The translations under genes were made by a program, and so were the position numbers. Below are positions 21,826 through 52,766 of a stretch of DNA of 64,000 nucleotides, in pieces. The notes under the pieces were generated by a model, which made no database searches, was not told the DNA's origin, and saw only the letters and a list, made by a program, of their open reading frames with translations. Numbering within the stretch: position 1 is the first letter of the stretch; each line of letters starts with the position of its first letter. Source of the stretch: Microvirga solisilvae (GTDB lineage: Bacteria; Pseudomonadota; Alphaproteobacteria; Rhizobiales; Beijerinckiaceae); the NCBI RefSeq assembly GCF_022808595.1, contig NZ_JAKUCN010000004.1, positions 1 through 64,000 of the forward strand. Reading direction: 5' to 3'.

Positions 21826-22671
21826 TCAGGTTTGCGGCGTCATGTCGATCTTGAACCACTTCTGGGTGAGCTTTTGCACCGTTCCATCGGTGATGGCGGC
21901 CTGAATGGCCTGATCGAACATGGTCTTGAGTTCGGCATCGTCCTTGCGAAGGCCGACCGCCACGCCCCGCCCGAGAACGTCGCCGCTGATCGCACCGCCG
22001 ACGATCTCCATGTCCTTGAATTCGGGCTTCTCAGTGGAGGCCTTCAGGGAGGAATGCGCCGCGAAGATCGCGTCCAGACGGCCTGCGGCAAGGTCGAGGT
22101 CGTGCTGCTCGGTGGTCTTGTATTCGCGAATCGTCACCGTGTCCTTCAAGTACTTCTCGAGAAACTGGGCATTGACGGTTGAGCCCTGCGTGCCAACGGT
22201 CTTGCCCTTCAGCATCGGCTTCCAGTCCTCGATCATCTTCTTGGCGGCATCGGGATCCTTGTCGAGGCTCAGGCGCTGGCCCTGGCCTGCGAGCTTCTCG
22301 AGGGGAGAGCCTTTGAGAACGCCCCAGCCATGCGGGCCGGAGGCATAGGGGCGCGAGAAGTTGATAGTCTCCAGCCGCTTCTCCGTGATGTTCATGCCAG
22401 CCATGATGGCATCGTATTTCTTGGCATTGAGCGCCGGGATGATGCCGTCCCAATCCTGGGACACGATCTCGCATTTCACCTTCATGCGTGCGCACAGGTC
22501 GTTGGCGAGGTCGATCTCGAATCCTTCGAGCTTGCCGCCGGCGCCTGTGAAGTTCCACGGTGCATAGGCGCCTTCGGTCGCGATCTTGATGGTCTTCTCT
22601 TGAGCCGAAGCCACACCCACGGAAAGTGTGGTGGCCAGCAGGGTGAGACCCAGTGCCTTGAGTATCCTCAT
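21826..22671 (-). CDS. Polar amino acid ABC transporter substrate-binding protein, paralogue 1
   Basis: Periplasmic binding protein of 281 residues (SBP family 3, lysine/arginine/ornithine-histidine type). A signal peptide ends at ASA (about residue 23), followed by EKTIKIATEGAYAPWNF. Ligand-site stretches are FEIDLANDLC, QDWDGIIPAL, MAGMNITEKR and GTQGSTVNAQ. It is closest to the permease genes and the most diverged of three tandem paralogues; RPYASGPHGW replaces the corresponding LPYASGPNGF of paralogue 2. AGGGGAACG precedes the start, a leader shared with the other copies. Confidence 0.9.
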   Translation of the reverse strand: MRILKALGLTLLATTLSVGVASAQEKTIKIATEGAYAPWNFTGAGGKLEGFEIDLANDLCARMKVKCEIVSQDWDGIIPALNAKKYDAIMAGMNITEKRLETINFSRPYASGPHGWGVLKGSPLEKLAGQGQRLSLDKDPDAAKKMIEDWKPMLKGKTVGTQGSTVNAQFLEKYLKDTVTIREYKTTEQHDLDLAAGRLDAIFAAHSSLKASTEKPEFKDMEIVGGAISGDVLGRGVAVGLRKDDAELKTMFDQAIQAAITDGTVQKLTQKWFKIDMTPQT

Positions 22672-22842
22672 CGTCGTTCCCCTGGTCAGCTTTAACTGAT
22701 CCTTTTACCCCCTGGCAGGCCACGACAGCTCGCCAGGCGATCTCTCAAGGTAACAGCCAAAAGCGAAGCCGGCGCAAGGCCTAATCCTGCCGAATCAACG
22801 GGCTGGATTGGCGTTTTCGGTCGCAGTTGATCCGTTTTCATA

Positions 22843-22872
22843 CAAAAAAGGCGCGGCCTGAGCCGCGCCTTG
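22843..22872 (-). terminator. Rho-independent terminator after binding-protein paralogue 2
   Basis: On the minus strand, stem AAGGCGCGGC / GCCGCGCCTT region followed by TTTTTTGTA. It separates paralogue 2 from paralogue 1 and should lower read-through from the second gene into the transporter genes. Confidence 0.75.
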
Positions 22873-22888
22873 ATGAAGATAGGAAGGA

Positions 22889-23737
22889 TCAGCCTTTCGG
22901 CGAGATGTCGATCTTGAACCACTTCTCAGACAGCTTCTTCACGGTACCGTCCTGGACGGCAGCCTGGATGGCGTCATCGAAAGCCTTCTTCAGCTCGGTG
23001 TCTTCCTTGCGCAGGCCGATGCCGACGCCTTCGCCGAGCAAGCCGCCGCTCATGGCGGGGCCGACGAGAACGTAATCCTTGCTGAACTCGGGCTTCTCGA
23101 GCGTGCCGATGAGCGCCGTGGAATCCGCCAGAACCGCGTCAATGCGGCCGGCGGCGAGGTCGAGGTCATGGGCCTCGGTGGTCTTGTACTCGCGGATCTC
23201 GGCGGCGCCCTTGTAGTACTTGTCGGCGAAGTTCGCGTGAATGGTCGAGCCCTGGACGCCGATGGACTTGCCCTTCAGGAGAGGCTTCACAGCCTCGATA
23301 GCCTTCTCTGCGGCTTCCTTCTGCGTGGCGAGGTTGAAGGTCTGGCCCGTGCCCGGCATCTTGGCGAGCGGCGAAGACTTGGCAACGAGGAAACCGTTGG
23401 GGCCGCTGGCATAGGGAAGGGAGAAGTTGATGGTCTTCTTGCGCTCGTCGGTGATGCTCATGCCGGCGACGATGGCGTCGTACTTCTTGGCCGTCAGAGC
23501 GGGAATGATGCCGTCCCAATCCTGAGCCACGATCTCGCACTTGGCCTTCATGCGGTTGCAAAGCTCGTTGGCGATATCGACGTCGAAGCCTTCGAGCTTG
23601 CCGCCAGCGCCCGTGAAGTTCCACGGAGCGTAAGCGCCTTCAGTCGCGATCTTGATGGTCTTCTGCTGGGCCGAAGCTCCGCCAACAGCGAGAGCCGTAC
23701 CAATAATGGCCAGGCCAACAGTTTTAGCGATTGTCAT
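22889..23737 (-). CDS. Polar amino acid ABC transporter substrate-binding protein, paralogue 2
   Basis: Periplasmic binding protein of 282 residues, SBP family 3. Signal peptide to about residue 23 (GGASA then QQK), mature start QKTIKIATEGAYAPWNF, then FDVDIANELC, QDWDGIIPAL, SITDERKKT, GVQGSTIHAN and LDLAAGRIDAV. Start at ATG 23737 (AAGGGAACG upstream) rather than the frame from 23869, whose extra 44 residues precede a normal signal peptide. It is very similar to paralogue 3 over its whole length. Terminators on both sides indicate separate expression. Confidence 0.9.
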   Translation of the reverse strand: MTIAKTVGLAIIGTALAVGGASAQQKTIKIATEGAYAPWNFTGAGGKLEGFDVDIANELCNRMKAKCEIVAQDWDGIIPALTAKKYDAIVAGMSITDERKKTINFSLPYASGPNGFLVAKSSPLAKMPGTGQTFNLATQKEAAEKAIEAVKPLLKGKSIGVQGSTIHANFADKYYKGAAEIREYKTTEAHDLDLAAGRIDAVLADSTALIGTLEKPEFSKDYVLVGPAMSGGLLGEGVGIGLRKEDTELKKAFDDAIQAAVQDGTVKKLSEKWFKIDISPKG

Positions 23738-23934
23738 AGTCGTTCCCTTGTTTTTGAGGCTCGGATACACCTTGAGCCTGTTGCTCGCAGCCTTCTTGAG
23801 GCCGCTCCGGAAGGAAGTAACGGCCAATCTCAGAAAAAAGGCAAGGGGCGCTTGAGGGGCCTTGCACAAGAGCCGGTCTGCAGGGCTAAGTCCAAGGTAG
23901 AGCTTGCCAAATCGCGCCCGAGCAGAGGCGGCTT

Positions 23935-23968
23935 AAAAAGGAAAAGGCGCGGCTGGCGCCGCGCCCTT
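23935..23968 (-). terminator. Rho-independent terminator after binding-protein paralogue 3
   Basis: Stem GGCGCGGC (23946-23953) / GCCGCGCC (23958-23965) with a 4-base loop; on the minus strand it is followed by TTTTCCTTTTT. It separates paralogue 3 from paralogue 2. Confidence 0.75.
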
Positions 23969-23979
23969 CCGGTTGGAGA

Positions 23980-24828
23980 TCAGCTCCGGGGTGTGATGTC
24001 GACCTTGAACCACTTCAGGGCCAGGGTCTTGAGCGTGCCGTCCTTGATGGCGCCCTGAATGGCTTCGTTGAAAGCCTTCTTCAGCTCCTGGTCTTCCTTG
24101 CGCAGACCAACGCCGACGCCCAGGCCGAGCATGCCGCCCGTGACGGAGGGGCCGACGAGAACGTAATCCTTGCTGAACTCGGGCTTTTCAAGGGTGCCGA
24201 TGATGCTGGTGGCATCGCCAAGAACCACGTCGACACGGCCGGCGGCGAGGTCGAGGTCATGGGCCTCGGTGGACTTGTACTCACGGATATCGACCGTACC
24301 TTTCAGATACTTGTCGGCATAAGCGGAGTGGATGGTCGATCCTTGAACGCCAAGCGTCTTGCCTTTCAGCAGCGCCTTGGTTGCCTCGATGGCCTTCTCG
24401 GCGGCAGCCTGCTGCGTGCCGAGGTTATACGACTCGCCCGTGCCGGGCATCTTGGCGAGCGGCGAAGACTTGGGAACGAGGAAGCCGTTTGGTGAATCAC
24501 CGTATGGGCCTGCGAAATCGATGGTCTTCTTGCGCTCGTCGGTGATGCTCATGCCGGCCATGATGGCGTCGTACTTCTTTGCGGTGAGCGCGGGAATAAT
24601 GCCGTCCCAATCCTGTGCCACGATCTCGCAGGTCACTTTCATGCGGGCGCAGAGATCCTTGGCCAGTTCGATCTCGAAGCCGTCGAGCTTTCCATCCGGT
24701 GTTGTGAAGTTATAGGGAGCATAAGCTCCTTCGGTCGCAATCTTGATGGTCTTCTGCTGAGCGACCGCGCTCCCGGTCACGAGGGCCGAGCCGAGGAGGG
24801 CCAAGCCGAGGGTCTTTGCGAAATTCAT
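23980..24828 (-). CDS. Polar amino acid ABC transporter substrate-binding protein, paralogue 3
   Basis: Periplasmic binding protein of 282 residues, SBP family 3, the same length as paralogue 2. Signal peptide to about residue 23 (SAVA then QQK), followed by QKTIKIATEGAYAPYNF, FEIELAKDLC, QDWDGIIPAL and SITDERKKT. It differs at likely ligand-pocket positions, for example GPYGDSPNGF and TPDGKL. Start at ATG 24828: the AAGGGA site sits 6-8 bases upstream of it and abuts the alternative ATG at 24834; paralogue 2 has the same leader spacing. Confidence 0.9.
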   Translation of the reverse strand: MNFAKTLGLALLGSALVTGSAVAQQKTIKIATEGAYAPYNFTTPDGKLDGFEIELAKDLCARMKVTCEIVAQDWDGIIPALTAKKYDAIMAGMSITDERKKTIDFAGPYGDSPNGFLVPKSSPLAKMPGTGESYNLGTQQAAAEKAIEATKALLKGKTLGVQGSTIHSAYADKYLKGTVDIREYKSTEAHDLDLAAGRVDVVLGDATSIIGTLEKPEFSKDYVLVGPSVTGGMLGLGVGVGLRKEDQELKKAFNEAIQGAIKDGTLKTLALKWFKVDITPRS

Positions 24829-24846
24829 AGCCATTCCCTTGAATGC

Positions 24847-32155: not shown

Positions 32156-32257
32156 CCTCATCCTGAGGAGGCGCGTGATTGCCGTCTTTACGGATGTTTC
32201 GGTGCGCTCTGGAGCCTCCTTCGAGACGCATCCTCACGGCTGCTCCTCAGGATGAGG
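32156..32257. repeat. Dispersed palindromic repeat A, copy 1
   Basis: Bounded by a perfect 15-bp inverted repeat CCTCATCCTGAGGAG (32156-32170) / CTCCTCAGGATGAGG (32243-32257). The internal CTCCTTCGAGACG of the right half is also in copy 2 (43973-44070), while the matching left inner arm has decayed here. Could act as a terminator-like structure for the GNAT gene. Confidence 0.75.
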
Positions 32258-32549
32258 GCGGAGCGTGATCGAGCGATGGTTGTTCACCAGGAATTTGCAC
32301 GGCTTGTGAGATGTCAAAGAGCGAGCGGGAATGTTCTCGCGAGCGTGTGGCTCCGAGGTTTGGGGTGAGGGAGACGCGAGAGGTCGTCCGGTTCGCTTGT
32401 GAGAGTGAGAAGAACCTGACGGCCCCTCGCGCACGGTTCTTTTAGGCGGACACCGCGTCTTGCAACGATGGGCCTCCTGGGCCGGCTTGCGAGGCCGAAC
32501 CAGGACCGTTCCCGGCTCCATCATTCACGACGCCTCGCGAGCGCGCCCC

Positions 32550-32624
32550 TCATCGAGCCAGGACACCAACACATATAGCCAAGGTTAGGACCATTGTCAA
32601 GAACAAAAGCGGAACATTCCTCAT
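32550..32624 (-). CDS. Candidate 24-residue hydrophobic peptide
   Basis: ATG at 32624, with GGGAGGA (minus strand, within the left arm of repeat C) 6-8 bases upstream. It encodes MRNVPLLFLTMVLTLAICVG plus VLAR and a TGA stop: a single membrane-spanning stretch. The ribosome site comes from the repeat, so the reading frame may be fortuitous. No family recognised. Confidence 0.25.
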   Translation of the reverse strand: MRNVPLLFLTMVLTLAICVGVLAR

Positions 32625-32629
32625 AGGCC

Positions 32630-32859
32630 GTCCTCCCGGACGGTGCCGCCGAGCCGGGATCGCGTGTCGAATAAGGCTCTGGTCACCTCTCCCCGGTGGG
32701 GAGAGGTCGAGCGGAGCGAGGGTGAGGGGGTGAGACCTCTCCGGAAAGACCTGTAACCCCTCACCCGGACCTGACGGTCCGACCTCTCCCTCAGGGAGAG
32801 GTGACAAGCGCCACTCTGGTCCAACGATCCCGGGTTCTGCTCCGCAGCCCCGGGAGGAC
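32630..32859. repeat. Composite mosaic repeat C, copy 1, with repeat B inside
   Basis: Outer arms GTCCTCCCGG (32630-32639) and CCGGGAGGAC (32850-32859) are exact inverted repeats. Each end forms a hairpin. Between them lies repeat B, 32683-32804, bounded by TCACCTCTCC / GGAGAGGTGA and carrying internal hairpins. Compared with copy 3, both outer arms carry matching (compensatory) base changes. Confidence 0.75.
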
Positions 32860-41240: not shown

Positions 41241-41494
41241 CGCGCGCGTTCCTGCAGGGATTGGTGTTGTTTCTCCTGCCTTTCGTTCTCTTCGGTCTGT
41301 ATCTGGTCGCCCGTCGCCGCAATGCGCTTGTCTGGTCGTCCTGGAGCGATCAATCGCTCTGGCTCGCCATCGCGGGGGTCGTTATGGTCATCGCTTCGCT
41401 CCTCGTCACGGGCCTCGTAACAGAGCGGCATAAAGGCGCCTTCGTGCCGACACATATGGAAAATGGACGCGTCGTTCCGGGACAGTTTCAGTGA
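41237..41494 (+). CDS. DUF6111 family small membrane protein
   Basis: Protein of 85 residues with two membrane spans (about 5-25 and 42-62) and a short conserved cytoplasmic tail (FVPTHMENGRVVPGQF). Start at GTG 41237, overlapping the upstream stop (GTGA). Function unknown; the family is known mainly from this gene order between CoA pyrophosphatase and the CCA-adding enzyme in Hyphomicrobiales. Confidence 0.8.
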   Translation: MTRAFLQGLVLFLLPFVLFGLYLVARRRNALVWSSWSDQSLWLAIAGVVMVIASLLVTGLVTERHKGAFVPTHMENGRVVPGQFQ

Positions 41495-42732
41495 GTGACA
41501 CTCTCGATCACAAGGCGCTCCAAGTGCTGCTCGAGCGCCCGGCTTTGCGCCGCCTGCTCGAGGCCTATAACGGCGCGGTCGAAGAGACGCGCATCGTCGG
41601 TGGCGCCGTGCGCAATGCGCTGATCGGCAAGCCGCTCTCCGATATCGACTGCACCACGACGATGCTGCCTGAGGCCATCATCGAGCGCGCCAAGAAATCC
41701 GGATTCAAGTTCGTGCCGACCGGCATCGATCACGGCACGATCACGGTGATCGTCGACGGCGAGCCCTTCGAGGTCACGACATTGCGTGAGGATGTGGAAA
41801 CGGACGGACGACATGCTGTTGTCCGTTTCGGACACGATTTCGAGCTCGATGCCAAGCGGCGTGATTTTACCATCAACGCTTTGTCGCTCGGTCTCGACGG
41901 CAAGCTCTATGACTACACCAACGGCGTCGCCGATCTCGCTGCGCGGCGCGTGCGCTTCATCGGTGAAGCACGCACTCGCATCCGCGAGGATTATTTGAGG
42001 ATTCTGCGTTTCTTCCGCTTCCATGCGGAATATGCGCGCGATGGTCTGGATAGAGAAGGCCTCGAAGCTTCAGGGCTTGAGCGCCAGGGCTTGGCGACGC
42101 TGTCGAAGGAACGGATCCGACAGGAGCTTTTGAAGCTTCTCGTGGCGCAAAGGGCGCAGGAGACGATCCGCACGATGGCCGAGCACGGCTTTCTCACATG
42201 GCTTCTGGCCGGTGCCGCAGAGTTCGGACGCTTCGCCCGCGTGGCTGATTTCGACCAGGGCAATCCTGTCTGGCGGTTGGCGGCGCTCGCCGTCATGGTC
42301 GAGCAGGATGCGGAGCGCCTGCGCGAGCATCTGCGCCTGTCCAACGACGAGCAGAAAAAACTTGCGGCTTATGCGCAATTGCTCGCCGTTCTGAAGACAT
42401 GGGCGTTGCCGTTCGATGGCAGCGCCATTCGGCGCCTCGTTGCCGAGCACGGCGTCGAGACATTGAATATCGTCTTGGCTGCGATCAGGGGAGAGCCTGC
42501 ACCTCACATTCTCGGCGATGCGTGGATCGCATTGGAGAACTATCGGAGCGGCGCGGAGAGCGTGCCGGTCTTTCCGCTGCGCGGCGCTGATCTCGTCGAG
42601 CGCGGCATTCCGAAGGGGCCGAAGGTCGGCGAGATTCTTAGTGCCGCTCGTCAGGCATGGCTCGCGGAAGGATGCCGGACGGATGAGGCTTACGCGAAGG
42701 ATTTGTTGAATAGGGTTCTGGCGCAGGCCTGA
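41491..42732 (+). CDS. cca: CCA tRNA nucleotidyltransferase
   Basis: Protein of 413 residues that adds or repairs the 3' CCA of tRNA. The class II nucleotidyltransferase head has GGAVRNALIG and the metal-binding LSDIDCTT (Asp-x-Asp), then RRDFTINALSLGLDG and the ATP/CTP-choosing arginine helix RVRFIGEARTRIREDYLRILR (partly quoted). The start is GTG 41491, overlapping the DUF6111 stop by 4 bases. Length is typical for alphaproteobacteria. It is the last gene of its operon; composite repeat C/B follows 8 bases after the stop. Confidence 0.9.
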   Translation: MSDTLDHKALQVLLERPALRRLLEAYNGAVEETRIVGGAVRNALIGKPLSDIDCTTTMLPEAIIERAKKSGFKFVPTGIDHGTITVIVDGEPFEVTTLREDVETDGRHAVVRFGHDFELDAKRRDFTINALSLGLDGKLYDYTNGVADLAARRVRFIGEARTRIREDYLRILRFFRFHAEYARDGLDREGLEASGLERQGLATLSKERIRQELLKLLVAQRAQETIRTMAEHGFLTWLLAGAAEFGRFARVADFDQGNPVWRLAALAVMVEQDAERLREHLRLSNDEQKKLAAYAQLLAVLKTWALPFDGSAIRRLVAEHGVETLNIVLAAIRGEPAPHILGDAWIALENYRSGAESVPVFPLRGADLVERGIPKGPKVGEILSAARQAWLAEGCRTDEAYAKDLLNRVLAQA

Positions 42733-42740
42733 CACTAGCC

Positions 42741-43033
42741 GTCATCCCGGGGCTGCGAAGCAGAACCCGGGATCGTTGTCAGAATGTGGCTCTGATTACC
42801 TCTCCCCTGATCTCGGATGTTTCCGAGATCAGTCTTTTGCTGGAGCAAGTCGGGAACACCCGACTTGCGGTGGGGAGAGGTCGAGCGGAGCGAGGGTGAG
42901 GGGGTGAGACCTCTCCGAAAAGGACAGTAACCCCTCACCCGGACCTGACGGTCCGACCTCTCCCTCAGGGAGAGGTATTCCAGCGCTTCATCCTGCTCGC
43001 GATCCCGGATCGGCTTCCGCCGTCCGGGATGAC
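42741..43033. repeat. Composite mosaic repeat C, copy 2, with repeat B and a 61-bp double hairpin inside
   Basis: Outer arms GTCATCCCGG (42741-42750) and CCGGGATGAC (43024-43033). Inside lies repeat B (42797-42977), nearly identical in sequence to the B of copy 1. B is interrupted at 42808-42868 by 61 bases made of two perfect palindromes: TGATCTCGG/CCGAGATCA and GCAAGTCGGG/CCCGACTTGC. The insert begins and ends exactly at palindrome ends. The whole element lies between the convergent cca and hemF genes. Confidence 0.8.
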
Positions 43034-43045
43034 GCTTGAGAGATT

Positions 43046-43942
43046 TTAAGGCCACCGCACCGTCGGCGGCATGGACGACAGGATTGAGGCGATGTTGCCG
43101 CCTGTCTTCAACCCGAAGATCGTGCCGCGGTCGTAGAGCAGGTTGAACTCCACATAGCGCCCGCGCCGCACCTGCTGCTCATGACGGTCTGCCTCTGTCC
43201 ATTTGTCGAACACGTTGCGGCGCACGATCTCGGGATAGACCTTCAGGAAAGCCTCGCCCACATCCTTGGTGAAGGCGAGGTCCTGGTCCGGATTCCCGGT
43301 CCAGTGATAATCGTAGAAGATTCCGCCGATGCCGCGCGGCTCATGGCGATGCTTGAGATAGAAATACTCGTCGCACCACTTCTTGTATTTCTCGTAAGAG
43401 CCTTCCGGCGCATGGCGGCTGCAGGCCTCTTCCATGATCGCGTGGAAGGCGATGGTGTCGGGATCGTCCTGCGTGCGTCTGCGGTCGAGCACGGGCGTGA
43501 GATCGGCGCCGCCGCCGAACCAGGCTTTCGTCGTCACCACGAAACGCGTGTTCATGTGCACGGTCGGCACGTTCGGATTCCACGGATGGGCGATCAGCGA
43601 AATGCCGCCGGCCCAGAAGCGCGGATCCTGATCGGAGCCGGGAATCTGGCCGCGAAATTCGGGTGCGAACTCGCCATGCACGGTCGAGACATGCACGCCC
43701 ACCTTCTCGAACACGCGGCCGCGCATCATCGACATCACGCCGCCGCCGCCCGGCGCGCCGCTGTGGTCCTTGCGCTCCCAGGGGGTGCGCTCGAAACGGC
43801 CGGGTGCGGAAGCCTCGGAGGGGAGAGGAGCCGCCACCTCGTCCTCGATCTCCTCGAAGGCGGCGCAGATCCGGTCGCGGAGAGAGGCGAACCAGAGCGG
43901 GGCCTCGATCTGCATGCGCTCGATATCGGCTTTGTCGGTCAT
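43046..43942 (-). CDS. hemF: Oxygen-dependent coproporphyrinogen III oxidase
   Basis: Cytosolic enzyme of 298 residues that decarboxylates coproporphyrinogen III to protoporphyrinogen IX in heme synthesis. Conserved stretches are [40 protein letters not shown], and the C-terminal [16 protein letters not shown] and LKTGG. Length is normal. Start at ATG 43942 (MTDKADIE); the frame from 43978 would begin inside repeat A. The gene is flanked by two different dispersed repeats. Confidence 0.93.
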
Positions 43943-43972
43943 GGCAAGGCTATCCTTCAGATCAGATCGAGA

Positions 43973-44070
43973 CCTCATCCTGAGGAGCCGCGTAGCGGCG
44001 TCTCGAAGGAGTGTCCAGAGTGCGCTGGAACCTCCTTCGAGACGGGCCTCCGGCCCTCCTCAGGATGAGG
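43973..44070. repeat. Dispersed palindromic repeat A, copy 2
   Basis: Perfect 15-bp outer inverted repeat CCTCATCCTGAGGAG (43973-43987) / CTCCTCAGGATGAGG (44056-44070), plus a perfect inner one CGTCTCGAAGGAG (43999-44011) / CTCCTTCGAGACG (44032-44044). It lies between hemF and trmL on the same strand and could terminate or attenuate the trmL transcript. Confidence 0.8.
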
Positions 44071-52666: not shown

Positions 52667-52766
52667 GTCATCCCGGACGGCGCAGCCGATCCGGGATCGC
52701 GTGACGATACAAGCGCTGGATCCTGCAAACGATCCCGGATCTTCGCTACGCTTCGTCCGGGATGAC
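52667..52766. repeat. Mosaic repeat C, copy 3, without insertion
   Basis: 100 bases with outer arms GTCATCCCGG (52667-52676) / CCGGGATGAC (52757-52766). Each half forms its own hairpin, CCCGGacgg...CCGGG and CCCGGatctt...CCGGG, joined by about 30 bases. This is the empty form of the element that contains repeat B at 32630 and 42741. It lies between convergent genes. Confidence 0.78.

Follow-up and report, generated by a model that had tools for sequence, protein, structure and literature searches.

Nested palindromic repeats in Microvirga and their probable growth by successive insertion into hairpin centres

Introduction

The genome of a Microvirga (3.7 Mb, assembled in 22 contigs) holds three families of small palindromic repeats that carry no gene, here termed C, B and D, whose loci probably document how one element after another inserted itself into hairpin centres. 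The window, by which we mean the whole stretch of 64,000 nucleotides that was analysed (contig 17), holds one locus with C alone, one with C filled by B and one with C filled by B that is itself filled by D; the strongest evidence, however, is a series of orthologous alleles in an RluA-type gene outside the window. The growth and spread of palindromic repeats is an old open question, and has long stayed so because such repeats lack genes and seldom leave an empty site that can be recognised. What is new here is an unusually clean and complete insertion series, both CGTC-REPs and REP dimers within palindromes being already known.

Three states of one element in the window

Copy 2 (42741..43033, 293 bp), in which D fills B and B fills C, is flanked by two genes that converge on it: one encodes a CCA-adding-type enzyme (41491-42732, plus strand), the other coproporphyrinogen oxidase (43046-43978, minus strand). 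The left half of its C (42741..42792) stops at a GCTC/GCGC junction, the B element including D occupies 42793..42982, and the right half of C (42983..43033) begins with GCGC. D (42807..42868) is a double hairpin, 61 nt net, that sits where the first B hairpin has its apical loop. Copy 1 (32630..32859, 230 bp) is C filled by B (32680..32807) without D, the loop of the first B hairpin being empty and reading CGGT. Copy 3 (52667..52766, 100 bp) is C alone, and its GCGC at 52713-52716 corresponds to the entry point of B in other C copies.

The sequence-only reading had described the three loci as these three states, and the sequence bears it out, as it does the near-identity of B at copies 1 and 2 (96% over 109 bp); copy 1 does contain C and B, but the same C ends had been ascribed to it, and its arms in fact read GTCCTCCCGG and not GTCATCCCGG. 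The states and their order, the junctions, and the occurrence of each part without the others around it are all directly observed.

Folded as single-stranded DNA, these sequences give z-scores of -6.0 for C and -9.1 for D within its host hairpin, and the entire copy 2 folds far more strongly than its shuffles (-11.3). Nothing in the window matches Rfam at gathering score, and the 293-bp copy-2 query has no match in the plasmid and phage collections; B alone as a query finds weak plasmid matches in Bradyrhizobium, Azospirillum, Pleomorphomonas, Microvirga and Methylobacterium. As a separate observation, positions 21826-24834 of the window hold three tandem paralogous segments of ~0.85 kb (spacing 1066 and 1091 bp, 64-82% identity), each with one open frame on the minus strand.

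The C element and the probable entry of B at its dyad

C, 100 bp long, consists of two CGTC-REP-like hairpins in inverted arrangement. CGTC-REPs have CGTC, TGTC or CCTC at the outer end, a stem of 8-9 bp beginning with complementary AT and a loop of 4-5 nt, with loop exceptions mentioned in Bradyrhizobium; they have no dedicated transposase, and in Agrobacterium their dimers have spacers with a stem-loop at each end (PMC3733652). In copies 1, 2 and 3 each outer end of C carries CGTC, and C likewise has 8-bp stems starting with AT (in copies 2 and 3, ATCCCGGG/CCCGGGAT and ATCCCGGA/TCCGGGAT) and is laid out as an inverted dimer. The C stems enclose 11-18 nt rather than 4-5 nt, and for this reason C is not filed as a strict CGTC-REP dimer; it resembles one, would work like one and fits the superfamily. 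B, D and the stepwise series, in contrast, are absent from PMC3733652.

In the own-genome loci read around matches, which do not amount to a full census, C is alone in 33 copies and filled in 29; five further matches to the C pattern with centres of more than 300 nt were left out, since the regular expression merges across neighbouring repeats. The centre of the 33 C-only copies is 29-30 nt long, with the consensus ..GACGAGAATGGCGCCTTATCCTG.., in which GCGC occupies positions 14-17, at the dyad. Where C is filled, its left part ends ..GGCGC and its right part begins GCGCC.., such that GCGC borders the insert on both sides, and at least three of its four letters are kept on both sides in 24 of the 29. 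The consensus of B ends TGG..CCA and its terminal repeats read TGG..CCTCTCCC or TTCACCTCCCC. With terminal inverted repeats, no gene and a short target duplication (GCGC in 24/29 filled C), B has the features of a MITE, and it behaves as a miniature inverted-repeat element would on entering the C dyad and duplicating 4 bp there.

C is also filled in other ways. A different REP-like dimer sits at this point of C in two copies (L050, L191), and four-level nesting, C > B' > B > D, is found at C16:135046 (L002/L032). At the copy-2 site of relatives C is filled otherwise, namely by a shrunken B in the nearest relative (G032), by B' and a REP-like dimer in G149, by B' in G135 and by a REP-like dimer in G131, while other relatives are without C. 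At the copy-3 site C is present only in the source genome and in G032; the two convergent genes abut in ten congeners, and five further congeners have short gaps without C. The stepwise insertion that had been proposed from the window is thereby supported by a gain of C at the copy-3 site, by the ratio of empty to filled C and by the constant GCGC junction. The outcomes that the sequence-only reading had named as refuting this did not occur: the parts are found apart from one another, and their junctions do not vary in the manner of random decay.

Beside the C element of copy 1 lies a further unit. At a distance of 14 nt from the end of this C stands GTTCN7GTTCTTGAC, a promoter that resembles a LexA box (32596-32615 on the minus strand, with a chance expectation of 0.02). 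Together with a TATA-like -10 it leads into a conserved unit, ~300 nt long, in which GAGGGGCGCGCTCGCGAGGCGTCG is near-invariant (window 32411-32615, minus strand). The own-genome loci contain 20 distinct copies (L002-L004, L010-L015, L018, L021-L023, L025, L026, L029, L030, L061, L188, L196); 18 of them have the end of a C arm exactly 14 nt upstream, and a nineteenth has a variant arm at the same distance. The unit is also present in several congeners and has no match in Rfam or among plasmids; in passages from alphaproteobacterial papers, GTTCN7GTTC co-occurs with LexA.

An orthologous series in the RluA-type gene

One D of the source genome, at C16:29888, lies in frame within a gene for an RluA-type pseudouridine synthase (PF00849), and this single in-frame site was compared among orthologues from 29 Microvirga genomes. 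The site is empty (18 nt) in 15 species. Eight species carry a B''-type element of 144-156 nt without D, in which the loop of the second hairpin is TCAA (7/8) or TCCA (1/8), and four genomes (the source genome, G127, G125 and G141) carry B'' with D, 210-216 nt, D standing in place of the tetraloop TCAA. Other repeat-derived inserts are found in frame at the same place of the gene in G144 (L311, 201 nt) and G128 (L312, 171 nt), which suggests a permissive or preferred site. All 14 inserts have a length that is a multiple of three and keep the reading frame open, an observation that is direct, and the protein accordingly passes from RVLGRGEG.. through ..SDPPPQGEGE.. to ..SDPPPPKSDVSDLGRQERISGTPEIRGED..; the RluA-type protein of a B+D Microvirga would carry an insert of 66 residues.

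It could be argued that the series runs the other way, with C+B, or B+D, at the start and the short forms derived from it by precise deletion, for which the direct GCGC repeats around B might provide the means. We consider this very unlikely: the whole RluA insert is absent from 15 species, unrelated inserts are found at the very point of C that B enters, and deletions of D would each have had to restore the loop TCAA found in seven of the eight B-only alleles (the eighth has TCCA). Because such repeated and precise restoration of one loop is improbable, insertion is taken as the direction at this site, and the empty, B and B+D orthologues thus lend further support to stepwise growth. The tree of the RluA-type gene has poor resolution and a patchy distribution of D, and it pairs the source genome with G032, which has B'' without D; the gains of D can therefore not be counted, and two gains cannot be told apart from one gain followed by exchange between B copies.

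REPs have been reported in tRNA pseudouridine synthase genes (PMC3733652), and Rickettsia palindromic elements, like in-frame REPs, are repeats that lie in frame in conserved genes (PMC3733652, PMC2229807); in contrast to those cases, the RluA insert is itself nested and all its stages survive among congeners. A second D of the source genome (L203, G000:C16:38900-40100) belongs to a B-type element between rpsP and rimM, whose open frame runs into RimM and may provide a putative repeat-derived N-terminal extension of that protein.

Structure and hosts of the D element

D consists of two 26-nt hairpins joined by a linker of ~10 nt. In copy 2 its ends coincide, as the sequence-only reading had stated, with those of two perfect palindromes of 26 nt (42807-42832) and 24 nt (42845-42868), with the qualification that a single C makes the left border ambiguous. 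Compared with eight empty copies of the first B hairpin in the same genome, seven reading CACCTCTCCC-CGGT-GGGGAGAGG and one having CAGT, the net gain is 60-61 nt, and no clear target duplication of D is seen against these empty hairpins. Where a MITE would have a target duplication, D has a border ambiguity of 1-3 nt and, at the RluA site, a replaced loop.

A loose double-hairpin pattern matches exactly five places in the 3.7-Mb genome and the reversed control pattern none, so the D pattern is not a matter of chance. All five D elements sit at the tips of B-type hairpins, in both hairpins of B and in both orientations relative to it: two loci have D in the first hairpin of B, C12:244596 has it in the second hairpin of an oppositely oriented B, and C16:29888 and C16:39447 have it in B''-type hairpins. 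D-like double hairpins are present in 20/41 Microvirga genomes and in 18/119 genomes of the family. A stricter pattern, applied to one genome per species in ~85,000 species, yields 77 stretches, all alphaproteobacterial by label except for Proteobacteria-labelled bins; the named genera are Microvirga, Stappia, Hongsoonwoonella, Chelatococcus, Hansschlegelia, Rhodoblastus, Azorhizobium, Bosea and others, all of which we take to belong to the Hyphomicrobiales, and the remaining stretches are in bins labelled Hyphomicrobiales, Alphaproteobacteria or Proteobacteria. Among viral contigs one record has two D copies. The D core was not found as text in the papers searched, which is weak evidence of novelty.

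The D stems strongly covary, and their structure is plainly conserved while the sequence changes: in an alignment of 55 sequences 98.6% of the stem cells are paired, 13 of the 22 pairs are changed on both sides, and 145 double-changed cells are counted against 33.6 in shuffles. Template-switch repair can also keep palindromes perfect in the absence of selection, and for this reason the covariation alone is no proof of selection. The same caveat weakens the idea that the large hairpins are kept for an RNA role, such as transcription termination or protection of mRNA ends, with D as a favoured extension that strengthens the structure. This idea would gain from the covariation, from the position of copies 2 and 3, both between convergent gene ends, and from the finding of Bradyrhizobium REPs in transcribed 3' untranslated regions (PMC5082802), yet an in-frame D inside a coding gene, the patchy presence of the element and its little positional conservation between species make it doubtful in our estimation.

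How D comes to lie at hairpin tips is a separate matter. Flanking arms with at least six consecutive pairs surround 71% of 154 D-like elements, compared with 3.5% at random places in the same loci. Hosts of the B type account for 118 of the 154, and there an energy measure places 70% of D at p<=0.05; in the 36 non-B hosts the figure is 7/36 (19%), a weak tip preference, and because of this weak result the general claim of insertion at hairpin tips is scaled down. In these counts we have kept the matches in G116 and G049 (TCGGATATATCCGA), which agree with the loose pattern; they are not placed in clear hairpin tips, and we do not argue that they are D.

One possibility, to which we give rather less than an even chance, is that D entered B-type hairpins once or a few times and was then spread by the copying of B+D composites and by ectopic gene conversion, with no mover that chooses tips. 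Near-identical B+D composites do occur at many places in one genome (G130, G144), the RluA-gene D of G125 resembles another D in the same kind of hairpin of that genome (L163, L164), and most hosts are of the B type. Against only few entries stand the presence of D in both B hairpins and in both orientations, and its presence at the tips of unrelated hairpins (L081, L083, L084, L229, L257). A bolder proposal, and an unlikely one in our judgement, is that D is a gene-less mobile double hairpin whose target is defined by DNA shape and not by sequence: the apical loop of an extruded hairpin, which D replaces; if true, this replacement would point to cleavage and rejoining at hairpin tips and not to a classical transposase.

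Two other palindromic repeats were noted alongside these. In G116, a genome of the family, 39 places (e.g. L186) have a different double or triple hairpin repeat with the core TCGGATATATCCGA, which is not clearly within host hairpins. The window contains a further palindromic family (CTGAGGAG..CTCGAAGGAG) at 43973-44070 and 32182-32245, and in G078 and G105 a D-like element lies at the hairpin tip of a repeat of the CTGAGGAG..CTCGAAGGAG type (L083, L084).

The search for a mover

The sequence-only reading had pointed to a transposase of the TnpA-REP/RAYT type, and D might indeed be moved by a REP-associated Y1 enzyme in the manner of REPINs, since it has two inverted hairpins as REPINs do and Y1 transposases are encoded by 6/41 congeners. 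The evidence does not support this. No Y1 domain is present in the source genome, and D shows no association with Y1 among congeners, occurring in four of the six Y1-positive and 16 of the 35 Y1-negative ones. The GTAG tag is absent from the D hairpins in the alignment of 55 elements, and with neither this tag nor a genomic RAYT (Y1), D does not have the marks of a REPIN or GTAG-REP; movement by Y1 is accordingly highly improbable. A search in six congeners for an autonomous partner with D ends found no long element among 18 further matches to the D core; of these, 17 are copies of D, in several of which the second hairpin has decayed, and the remaining one is a single-hairpin remnant.

Discussion

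The preferred explanation is thus that the loci record successive insertions. B would enter C at its dyad, and the 4 bp GCGC then flanking it on either side would correspond to a short target duplication; D would then enter, or replace, the apical loop of a B hairpin; and the composites may later spread as one unit or through exchange between B copies. The elements would move as DNA, probably by means of an enzyme acting in trans, and hairpins that are extruded as cruciforms or single-stranded would expose the target loops, a plausible ground for the choice of target. To be set against this explanation are the failure to find a mover, the lack of a clear duplication at D, the patchy distribution of D and the weak tip preference outside B.

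Several known systems offer partial parallels. Rhizobium-specific intergenic mosaic elements (RIME), reportedly described in 1995, are said to be palindrome mosaics in Rhizobiales. The present elements likewise form an intergenic palindrome mosaic in Rhizobiales, a likeness drawn from the description of RIME and from citations in PMC2245857. REP dimers within palindromes were noted in passing in 2013 for Anabaena variabilis, Thermomicrobium roseum and Halothiobacillus neapolitanus, and in two of those three species target palindromes free of REPs were not found (PMC3733652). These too are small hairpin repeats inside longer palindromes, but D has neither the GTAG nor the CGTC tag, and here both empty and filled orthologous sites are available. 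Insertion sequences also target REPs, making palindromic repeats landing sites for mobile DNA (PMC1525189), whereas B and D have no transposase gene and are themselves palindromic repeats. The double hairpins of Allomyces mitochondria, as cited in PMC2800124, are thought to be mobile and lack flanking duplications; D is likened to them by description, although the Allomyces elements are organellar.

For Microvirga, this means that empty, once-filled and twice-filled alleles of one coding site survive in living congeners. Together with the constant landing point of B, the RluA series allows three questions to be tested in culturable bacteria: which way the elements grow, how they choose a target and what becomes of the host protein. 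In addition, the link between D and hairpin tips offers a way into structure-guided insertion.
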